Of a stretch of DNA of 14,666 bases, positions 12,183-14,666 are shown piece after piece. Origin of the DNA: a bacterium (GTDB taxonomy: Bacteria; CAIWAD01); assembly GCA_030429345.1 (NCBI GenBank), contig JAUIFJ010000054.1, forward strand, positions 1 to 14,666, written 5' to 3'. Under the pieces are notes generated by a model, which was not told the origin of the DNA, did no database searches, and was given only the letters and a program-made list of their open reading frames with translations. Position 1 is the first letter of the stretch. Each line of letters starts with the position of its first letter. Both the position numbers and the translations under genes were made by a program.

Positions 12183-13226
12183 ATGGCTGCGGGCATTCTT
12201 CCATCCTCATTCGATTCTGCGTTCAGGCCGATGGCCCTTTGCTGCCGTGAGACGCCCTCCTTCGATCCACGGCCACGCATGCGGGAGCGGATCCACGCCG
12301 CGTTTCGTGTGAGACGCTTCGCGCAGCGCACGGAAAAGGCCTACACGGCCTGGATCCTGCGCTTCATCCGCTTCCACGGCACACGGCATCCCGCCGGGAT
12401 GGGCGAGGCGGAGATCAACGAGTTCCTTAGCCACCTGGCGCTGGAGCGCGACGTAAGTGCGTCGACGCAGACCCAGGCGCTCAGCGCCCTGCTCTTCCTG
12501 TATCGCCATGTGCTCGGTCGCGAGATCGGCGACCTGGGCGATGTGATCCGCGCCCGCCGCCCGGCGAAGCTTCCGGTTGTGCTCAGCCGCGTGGAAGTCA
12601 AATCACTCCTTGACGAACTCGATGGTGTCACATCCCTGGTCGCCAATCTGCTCTACGGCGGCGGACTGCGCTTGATGGAAGCGCTTCGGCTGCGCGTCCA
12701 GGATCTGGATCTTGCAGGGCAACGCCTCTGGGTCCGCAGCGGCAAGGGCGCCAAGGATCGCCAGAGCCTGCTCCCCGCTAGGCTGGCGCCGACCCTGCAG
12801 GAACACCTGCGGGCAGTGCGAGATCTGCACGCGCGGGATCGAAAGGAAGGCTTCGGCCATGTCGAGATGCCCGAAGCCCTTTTACGGAAGTATCCTAATG
12901 CCTCCACCGAATGGGCATGGCAATGGGTCTTTCCCCAGCAGCACCGGTGGCGGGACCGGGAAAGCGGCCGCGAAGGGCGGCATCACATGGATCCCTCGAT
13001 CATCCAGCGGGCCGTGAAGGAAGCTGTTCGGCGGGCGGGCATTCACAAGAAAGCCACCTGCCACACCTTGCGACATTCTTTCGCGACTCATCTGCTGGAA
13101 CGGGGGCAGGACATTCGGACGATCCAGGAGCTGCTTGGCCATCGGGATCTGAAAACAACCATGATCTACACACATGTCATCAATCGAGGCCCCATGGGCG
13201 TCATCAGCCCGGCAGATGACCTGTAA
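12183..13226 (+). CDS. intI: Integron integrase IntI (tyrosine recombinase)
   Basis: This 347-aa protein has a SAM-like N-terminal DNA-binding part ([20 protein letters not shown], 42-61) and a catalytic domain with R163 ([10 protein letters not shown]), Lys in GKGAKDR (188-191), H294 and R297 (CHTLRHSF), H320 (LLGH) and nucleophile Y329 (TTMIYTHV). Residues about 227-269 are the extra patch that separates IntI from Xer[22 protein letters not shown] then RHHMDP. IntI joins attI and attC sites, the attC as a folded single strand. ATG 12183 has GGGGA six bases upstream; the N-terminus is about 20 residues longer than usual, with ATG at 12279 as a possible but SD-less alternative. All catalytic residues are present. 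Cassettes lie at its 3' side and read in the same direction, unlike classical integrons. Confidence 0.95.
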
Positions 13227-13228
13227 GT

Positions 13229-13265
13229 GAATATCCTCTTCTACGGACTGGACATGAGGATATTC
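13229..13265 (+). terminator. Inverted repeat immediately after intI
   Basis: GAATATCCTC (13229-13238) and GAGGATATTC (13256-13265) are perfect 10-bp complements with a 17-base loop, starting three bases after the intI stop codon. There is no T-run, so it may end or protect intI mRNA, or be part of attI, as its arms carry the GGATAT motif repeated just downstream. Confidence 0.4.
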
Positions 13266-13374
13266 GGGTGGATATGATTGGCAGGATATGAGATATATGG
13301 TTAGAAGGCCTGATCAAGGGTTGGGCAGACTGTATACTCATAGTTATGTACACAATCGCGCGTAGCAAGTTAAC

Positions 13375-13403
13375 TTGCATATTTGCTAGACAATTGCTAT
13401 ACT
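13375..13403 (+). promoter_or_regulatory. Candidate cassette promoter (Pc)
   Basis: TATACT at 13398-13403 is preceded by TGC, giving an extended -10, and TTGCAT lies at 13375-13380 with a 17-base spacer. The -10 matches five of six consensus bases, the -35 only three. It points into the cassettes and sits where a Pc promoter is expected. Confidence 0.5.
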
Positions 13404-13480
13404 GTGTGGTTAGAATTTGATCATTGAAATGTTCTTAGGCCGGTAGGGGTTGCAGGCGGAGGTTCAATTCCTCTAGCAAT
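13393..13480 (+). other. tRNA T-arm-like hairpin with flanking 7-bp inverted repeat
   Basis: GGAGG-TTCAATT-CCTCT at 13458-13474 matches the tRNA T-arm pattern (GTTCAATTC fits GTTCRANYC). TAGCAAT after it (13474-13480) is the complement of ATTGCTA at 13393-13399, like an acceptor stem. I checked for a 5-bp stem with a 7-base loop in between and found none, and no D-stem forms, so this is not an intact tRNA. It could be a decayed tRNA end or simply a structured leader. Confidence 0.3.
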
Positions 13481-13541
13481 CTTACTAACGATAGCTTGTA
13501 TCTTACTGACCATATTAACCAAAACGAAGTGCTTGAATGCA

Positions 13542-13828
13542 GTTAAACTTATCAATTTACCATGGGAGGTGCTTATGAAAGATAAAATCACAAGACCAGT
13601 ATCAAATCTACTAGACACAACATTCAGTATTTTACATGATATCGGAGTAGGAATTGTAGTGGCGTGCCTGTCGACCTAAGAACATTTGATGTTAAGTTCA
13701 ATAGCAGGAAGAAGTTATCCAACTAGTCTTTAATCTTGACACTACGGAGAAGTTACATCAGCGAAGTTCATGCTGTAACTGTAATCCTTCATCATTCAGA
13801 ACAAGCAAGATACTCATAAAGTAACTGG
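13542..13828 (+). mobile_element. Integron gene cassette 1
   Basis: The left boundary is GTTAAAC at 13542-13548 (fits GTTRRRY); the right boundary is the G of GTTGAGT at 13829. It holds one 34-codon ORF close to its 5' end and an attC at its 3' end. The left boundary is less certain because no attC palindrome ends there; it may be the attI junction. Confidence 0.5.
13575..13679 (+). CDS. 34-aa small protein in cassette 1
   Basis: The ORF starts at ATG 13575 with GGGAGG five bases upstream, the best ribosome binding site in the window, and ends at TAA 13677-13679. The peptide begins MKDKITRPVSNLLDTTFSIL and ends GVGIVVACLST. A polar basic start is followed by a mostly hydrophobic C-terminal half (FSILHDIGVGIVVACL), which could be a single short membrane helix. 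I do not recognise a family. Small membrane-active peptide or cassette leader are the options; either is inference. It begins 33 bases after the presumed cassette boundary, and the strong SD is the main argument that it is translated. Confidence 0.55.
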   Translation: MKDKITRPVSNLLDTTFSILHDIGVGIVVACLST

Positions 13829-13835
13829 GTTGAGT
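13717..13835 (+). other. attC recombination site of cassette 1
   Basis: It starts with ATCCAAC (fits RYYYAAC) and ends with GTTGAGT (fits GTTRRRY), 119 bases in all. Arms pair in order: CAAC/GTTG, AGT/ACT, CTTTA/TAAAG, ATCTTG/CAAGAT, then an inner hairpin AGTTAC...GTAACT, with small bulges between. That is the folded-strand layout of attC. ATG of the next gene follows two bases later, as is common at cassette starts. Confidence 0.65.
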
Positions 13836-14547
13836 CATGAATAGAGCATTCTATGTGAATTTCGGAATCATTGCATGCTCCTTTTCTTGTCTTGAAGCGG
13901 ATCTGCGATCTCTCATTTCAGGAATAGTTTTCCGTGATGAAGCAGTTGTTGCATCAGCTTTCTTGGATAAATCTCAATTCGCAGAAAACACTACCATTCT
14001 GAAGAAGCTAGGACGGAATTTCTGGGAAGAGAAGGAACTGTTTGACAAGATAGTAGGCCAATTGCACCGGATAAGAGATGATCGAAACAGTTTTATTCAT
14101 GGCGTTTGGAGGCCTGGCAATTTCGGCGAGCCAAATGGAAATGCAGAGCTGCTCGATCTTAGGACCGTGTATTGTGAATCAGAGAACCAACGAAAGTGGA
14201 AGCATGGCGTCAGAAAACTGTACTCTCTTAAAGAATTCGCGGTATTACTTGATACGATCGAAAATGTACGATCTGATATCAAATCCTTGTGTATGAAGTT
14301 AGAAAATGCAGCGACTGAAGAGGGCATTCATTTAGACTTTAATCTATCTGGAGTTACTACAGCATACAGGCCACAGCTAATGCGACTAACTCCAGAGGGT
14401 GAACTAGTGCAAATTGAAATTGGAACATAACAACAGCATCAAGCTGGTGCCTCGCCTTGTCACGGCCTTTGCCTGGAATTGGCGCCGCTGCGCGTCGCAG
14501 TGGCTCGGGCAAAGCCCGCGCCAAGCCGGCCACAGCTTATGCTGAAC
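13829..14547 (+). mobile_element. Integron gene cassette 2
   Basis: It runs from the core GTTGAGT (13829) to the core GTTAGAA (14548): one ORF filling most of the unit, a very short 5' leader, and an attC whose first arm overlaps the stop codon. This is the standard cassette plan. Base composition of the ORF is clearly AT-richer than the chromosomal genes to the left. Confidence 0.75.
13837..14430 (+). CDS. Cassette-encoded protein with HEPN-like RNxxxH motif
   Basis: This 197-aa protein starts at ATG 13837, eight bases inside the cassette, with no clear SD, and ends at TAA 14428-14430 inside the attC arm. Residues 5-32 are a helix with the pattern FGIIACSFSCLEADLRSLIS, and 76-91 read QLHRIRDDRNSFIHGVW. 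R83-N84 and H88 form an R-x4-H motif, the catalytic signature of HEPN ribonucleases, in the usual 'helix then RN...HG.W' order of HEPN-like hypothetical proteins. The C-terminal third (about 130-197) is unassigned. If active it would be an RNase, as in toxin or anti-phage systems; no obvious antitoxin gene accompanies it in the cassette. HEPN assignment rests on motif spacing only. Confidence 0.7.
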   Translation: MNRAFYVNFGIIACSFSCLEADLRSLISGIVFRDEAVVASAFLDKSQFAENTTILKKLGRNFWEEKELFDKIVGQLHRIRDDRNSFIHGVWRPGNFGEPNGNAELLDLRTVYCESENQRKWKHGVRKLYSLKEFAVLLDTIENVRSDIKSLCMKLENAATEEGIHLDFNLSGVTTAYRPQLMRLTPEGELVQIEIGT

Positions 14548-14554
14548 GTTAGAA
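14425..14554 (+). other. attC recombination site of cassette 2
   Basis: The left arm has TAAC (14428-14431), a short spacer and CAGCATCAAGCTG (14434-14446). The right arm has CAGCTTATGCTG (14533-14544) and GTTAGAA (14548-14554). The L arms are perfect complements except for one extra C at 14440, the unpaired extrahelical base expected in attC. The layout TAAC-AA-L''...L'-AA-CGTTA matches Vibrio-type repeats closely. The interior is GC-rich and self-complementary (CTGCG-CGT-CGCAG; TTGGCGC/GCGCCAA). Confidence 0.85.
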
Positions 14555-14666
14555 CGTAGCAGTCGATTACCTGTAAGCTGCAGGGATGAAAGTTGGCTGC
14601 TGGTGTTTGAACCTGTGAAGTGCGGCGTGTGGCATCTCGTGTGCCAACCGCTTCTCCTCCAGTTTG
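14548..14666 (+). other. Start of a probable third cassette (truncated)
   Basis: DNA after the core GTTAGAA at 14548 should belong to the next cassette or the flank. No gene can be assigned in these 119 bases: ATG 14586 gives only ten codons, and a frame open from 14549 to the edge has only GTG starts (for example 14603). What follows lies outside the window. Confidence 0.4.

Follow-up and report, generated by a model that had tools for sequence, protein, structure and literature searches.

The locus and its integrase

The subject of this analysis is an integron whose integrase gene, intI, points toward its own cassettes. It lies in a window of 14,666 bp that comprises the whole of contig C58 (JAUIFJ010000054.1) in a bacterial genome (G000) of 4.24 Mb, 92 contigs, and 98% completeness. 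The host phylum is barely sampled, with five species in the genome set used, as the preliminary description, made from the sequence alone, had suspected in speaking of a little-studied lineage. intI adjoins lipA, which is located on the minus strand from 11019 onward, and is followed on its 3' side by a spacer, a predicted attI site (attI1), one complete cassette with its attC site (attC1), and the start of a second cassette (Table 1).

Table 1. Features of the integron in the window and of the related site on contig C52
Feature	Position	Strand	Basis and remarks
intI, integron integrase, 347 aa	12183..13226	+	TIGR02249; catalytic residues R163, K188, H294, R297, H320, Y329; complete additional domain
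intI-attI1 spacer	13227..13325	+	hairpin; candidate cassette promoter (Pc); homologous to the region preceding the second attI on C52
attI1 core, CAGACTGTATACTCATAGTTA	13326..13346	+	predicted crossover after G13343 (G13343/T13344); pattern, conservation, R'' complementarity
Cassette 1, complete	13344..14548	+	starts with TTATGT; R'' ACATAAC of its attC is the reverse complement of GTTATGT at 13343
Cassette 1 gene, 197 aa	13837..14430	+	same direction as intI; stop codon within R'' of attC
attC1	14425..14554	+	R'' ACATAAC, L'' ATCAAGCTG, L' CAGCTTAT, R' GTTAGAA; detector, covariance model, folding
Cassette 2 start	14549..14666	+	cut by contig end; 14548-14656 identical to C52 15873-15981
Second attI-like site (attI2) and cassette 2 start	C52 15757-15981 (L110 5758-5982)		homology to the intI-attI1 region

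The IntI protein scores 452.5 bits with the integron-integrase model TIGR02249 (cut-off 265), whereas its scores with the XerC and XerD models (150 and 146 bits) stay below the respective cut-offs of 335 and 330. When aligned to V. cholerae IntIA (PDB 2a3v), it shares 141 of 305 residues, and the additional domain that is specific to IntI proteins is complete. The six residues listed in Table 1 align with the catalytic residues of IntIA. The extra patch and full catalytic set that had been noticed at first sight are thus present. It is the only IntI above the cut-off in its genome.

attC1, attI1, and the cassettes

attC1 scores beyond chance. A structure-aware detector gave it a score of 23.7, which no site in 703 kb of locally shuffled sequence reached (best score 22.7); when applied to a class 1 integron as a control, the same detector recovered exactly the two annotated attCs at its cassette boundaries. 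A covariance model built from the attCs of related loci, from which all attCs of the own genome had been left out, returned attC1 on the plus strand with 38.0 bits (E 4.8e-5) as the top match in the 2.07 Mb of contig starts and ends to which the genome scans for attC extended. Finally, folding is more favourable for the bottom strand than for the top strand (−43.2 versus −33.4 kcal/mol), and the bulged base is located in the 5' arm, as is the case for attCs pointing away from attI. The R boxes and the extrahelical base are retained. The identity of the site is further supported by related copies on contig C85 (L109), where one attC matches attC1 with 95% identity over 113 bp and a second with 89% identity over 121 bp. 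The last attC of C85 has a degenerate R' (GCTCG).

The preliminary description had counted two attC-like palindromes in the window and had proposed a covariance-model search as a check. One of them is attC1, which passed; the other obvious repeat (13427-13447/13667-13687) gave no match to the model, has a loop of 219 nt, occurs once in the genome, and was rejected as a second attC. These 21-nt inverted repeats, which lie inside cassette 1, are possibly the remnant of a small transposable element. Two candidates elsewhere were also discarded, namely the second match of the model (C37 3101-3140, 29 bits), which is a GC hairpin just past a gene and without R boxes, and L239 3410-3560 (detector score 26.7), which is coding-like and without model support. 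A search with filters off missed attC1, probably because the 130-nt site exceeds the hit-length window of the model, and a whole-genome covariance search, in which 150 of 7185 candidates were scored, missed the known attC and was not used. Rfam at gathering thresholds yielded no match.

The attC of a cassette carries an R'' that is expected to be the reverse complement of the start of that same cassette. The start predicted in this way from R'' of attC1, GTTATGT, is present once in the window, at 13343. As it coincides with the attI1 core, which is conserved in two genomes of the same family (G003 and G004), attI1 and the start of cassette 1 were placed there, roughly 100 bp past the end of intI. 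Both relatives carry CAGACTGT...TAGTTA 3' of intI, 145 and 44 bp past the coordinates used, with one attI apiece, and the G004 contig terminates exactly at the GTTA of its attI. The pattern CAGACNGNNTACTCNTAGTTA, which was derived from the two genome sites that it matches, has no further match in the genome at three or fewer mismatches. An attI with a predicted G/TT crossover thus adjoins intI. The spacer in between contains a perfect hairpin of 10 bp (13229-13238/13256-13265) and a promoter-like TGGACA-18-TATGAT at 13249-13278, which is directed into the cassettes and which we infer to be a candidate Pc.

That AT-rich cassette DNA follows intI and is read in the same direction, as initially described, was borne out: GC content drops to 40% in cassette 1, from 63% in intI and 67% in the host stretch, and the single gene of cassette 1 runs along with intI. 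The 197-aa product has no Pfam, NCBIfam, or plasmid match. Its RDDRNSFIH segment resembles the Rx4-6H motif of HEPN ribonucleases, which is a weak lead. ARAGORN reported a tRNA-like sequence with a good T arm and no readable anticodon at 13392-13482, on which the Rfam tRNA model was silent and whose fold is no better than that of shuffled sequence.

The array in the window amounts to one complete and one partial cassette up to the contig end, and a further complete cassette is present on C85. The latter, flanked by the two attCs of that contig, encodes a MazE-like antitoxin and a PIN-domain toxin (L109 840-1507), and its start GTTAGCT (691) matches its own R'' AGCTAAC (1569). Right before one of the C85 attCs, L109 1-582 resembles the N-terminus of a group II intron reverse transcriptase (SLYRAAKRSGTRRFHALLDRLVRPDVFWRAWVE); the segment has no Pfam or Rfam match. 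Group IIC introns favour attC sites, with which L109 1-582 would fit. Including a 40-bp attC fragment on contig C60, three attC sites and one fragment were found in the own genome. No others occur in the scanned contig ends, which points to an array that is short or else for the most part missing from the assembly. Two contigs of family members (L119 and L120) stop within 304 and 66 bp past intI, and many related contigs from metagenome-assembled genomes likewise stop just 3' of intI, which is expected if arrays break assemblies.

Orientation of intI among related integrons

Both attI1 and attC1 lie 3' of intI and attC1 has plus polarity, which corresponds to the inverted layout. On the 5' side of intI neither an attI motif nor an attC was found, so the window does not have the classical divergent layout. 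Inverted IntIs have been described as a sub-clade inside the soil/freshwater clade (PMC8352920), and the same layout, with intI directed toward the cassettes, is known from Treponema (PMC3607928).

To place the window in this context, 80 contigs with related IntIs were compared, a sample that is biased to relatives of the window IntI and does not represent integrons at large. By the covariance model, attCs lie downstream in the direction of intI at 41 loci and upstream in the divergent direction at nine, with one contrary site (L032); many of these sites are also in the training set, and the tally therefore tests polarity and place, not existence. The detector, at a score of at least 21, gave 68 downstream plus-strand sites, 32 upstream minus-strand sites, and 10 others (four downstream minus, three upstream plus, and three undecided). 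In an IQ-TREE phylogeny of 88 proteins, the 44 inverted and 12 classic rows require two changes of layout, compared with 11.1 for shuffled labels. The configuration had at first been called rare, a claim that does not hold in this sample: among the related IntIs the inverted layout is common.

The same tree answers the question of whether the protein would group with IntI or with XerC/D. It is nested among IntIs, apart from the XerC/D of its own genome, and falls within starred sets of 31 and 32 rows (99/86 and 99/94) in which every labelled row is inverted. Its nearest rows are IntIs of Synechococcus/Cyanobium, which are about 63-66% identical and have their arrays downstream. Sampled hosts of the sub-clade include Cyanobacteria, Acidobacteria, Rokubacteria, Myxococcota, Nitrospirota, and Gemmatimonadota. 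The window integron is thus a member of the known inverted-IntI sub-clade. Within its own family, genome G002 encodes a divergent IntI (L121, contig C206, 265-1308) with tRNA genes downstream; toward the start of the contig, 5' of this IntI, the minus strand reads GTTAGGC, and no attI motif was found 3' of this IntI. The G002 locus may have the classical layout.

A second attI-like site on contig C52

The unexpected feature of this system lies outside the window. Contig C52 carries at its end, roughly 200 bp past the stop of a cation:proton-antiporter-like gene (named by eye), the sequence CAGACCGCCTACTCTTAGTTA. It forms a second attI-like site, which is far from any intI; C52 itself has none. 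The 109 bp that begin with the G of its GTTA match the first part of cassette 2 in the window without a mismatch. The region upstream is related as well: the 120-bp stretch from the intI stop to attI1 aligns to it with a score of 48, compared with a mean of 18.6 (sd 7.3, maximum 41) in 500 shuffles in which the core was kept. A ATATCCTC/GAGGATA hairpin is found in both upstream regions, and a promoter-like TGGAMA-TATGAT precedes both sites at different distances (66 and 88 bp), with a chance expectation of 0.3-1.3 per region. The orphan site would have its own upstream region and possibly its own promoter.

Since the genome has a single IntI above the cut-off, the C52 site, if used, is used in trans. 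Judged from these matches, IntI probably also loads cassettes there, or recently did so, which is the least certain step of our interpretation. The fuller proposal, that one chromosomal IntI serves two attI platforms (attI1 and the orphan attI on C52) with cassettes captured or copied in trans, is tentative, and we would give it slightly less than an even chance. A less likely explanation is that there is no second capture site and that an assembly join, or strain variation at the main locus, produced the C52 sequence. C58 and C52 both stop inside cassette 2, a repeat where assemblers branch, the genome may be metagenome-assembled, and an antiporter ortholog with which the flanks of the C52 locus could be compared was not found in the family members searched. 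On the other hand, the identity to cassette 2 starts exactly at the predicted crossover base, and the C52 sequence shares no more than 77% with attI1 in the 30-bp core, and less further up, which indicates a different, older copy; a simple misjoin does not explain such differences. An assembly join or strain variant would concern the second attI alone and is compatible with our explanation of the window.

Interpretation

With a probability of roughly 0.9, the window contains a sedentary chromosomal integron of the inverted-integrase sub-clade that was inserted beside lipA. Its anatomy (a complete IntI directed toward the array, attI, a complete cassette with attC, and the start of a second one), homology, and polarity can be read from the DNA itself. 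Some observations weigh against this interpretation. GTTATGT appears by chance in 13% of shuffles of the interval concerned; the window holds only one attC, with the array broken by the assembly; the motifs tried revealed no LexA-type box upstream of intI; and the C52 site may reflect mixed strains in a metagenome-assembled genome.

Going by the biochemistry of the family, recombination by IntI would join attC, as a folded bottom strand, to attI, as double-stranded DNA, with the exchange between G and TT (G13343/T13344), and new cassettes would enter adjoining the 3' end of intI. Their expression could be driven by the promoter in the spacer or by readthrough from intI, and IntI might use attI2 on C52 in trans.

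It is quite improbable that the locus is an integrase-only relic, in which the integron has decayed to In0 or close to it, is no longer active, and has a single cassette left. The small number of attC sites in the genome and the degenerate R' of the last C85 attC would suit such decay, but IntI is intact with all its catalytic residues, attC1 has kept its R boxes and extrahelical base, the identity of cassette 2 over 109 bp at two loci suggests recent movement, and, since the contig end cuts cassette 2 short on C58 as well as on C52, cassettes are probably absent from the assembly. The notion of an XerC/XerD-type recombinase beside unrelated inverted repeats, with no integron at all, draws on the shared tyrosine-recombinase superfamily ancestry and the weaker XerC/XerD matches and can be set aside as extremely improbable in view of the model scores and the position of IntI in the tree.

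The window thus holds a real integron, and one that is ordinary within a broad clade of inverted integrases. In the sampled relatives the inverted layout is the norm and marks one broad IntI clade across many phyla, and because it is so widespread, polymerase chain reaction or annotation strategies that seek cassettes only 5' of intI will miss such arrays. Should the orphan attI prove real, an array need not start out next to its integrase, and this would provide one origin for integrase-less cassette clusters.

Comparison with known systems

The inverted-IntI sub-clade (PMC8352920) and the layout in Treponema (PMC3607928) were already known. New are the integron in a little-sampled phylum and the attI-like site on C52, remote from intI and with the same cassette 2. 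In the chromosomal integron of the Treponema denticola type (PMC3607928), attI is likewise located 3' of intI; the host lineage is another one, and two Spirochaetota IntIs are placed near the window IntI in the tree. The members of the inverted-IntI sub-clade (PMC8352920) are alike in orientation and phylogenetic position, from which the present case differs by its host phylum and by the extra attI-like site elsewhere in the genome. Class 1 integrons (IntI1) and the V. cholerae IntIA superintegron share the enzyme family, the attC structure, and the G/TT crossover, but have a divergent layout with attI and the array on the 5' side of intI. Finally, contigs C52 and C85 resemble a CALIN (a cluster of attC sites without an integrase) in that they bear cassette or attC sequence without an intI on the contig. 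What sets C52 apart from a CALIN is the attI-like site of its own that immediately precedes the cassette, a feature outside the usual definition of that class.
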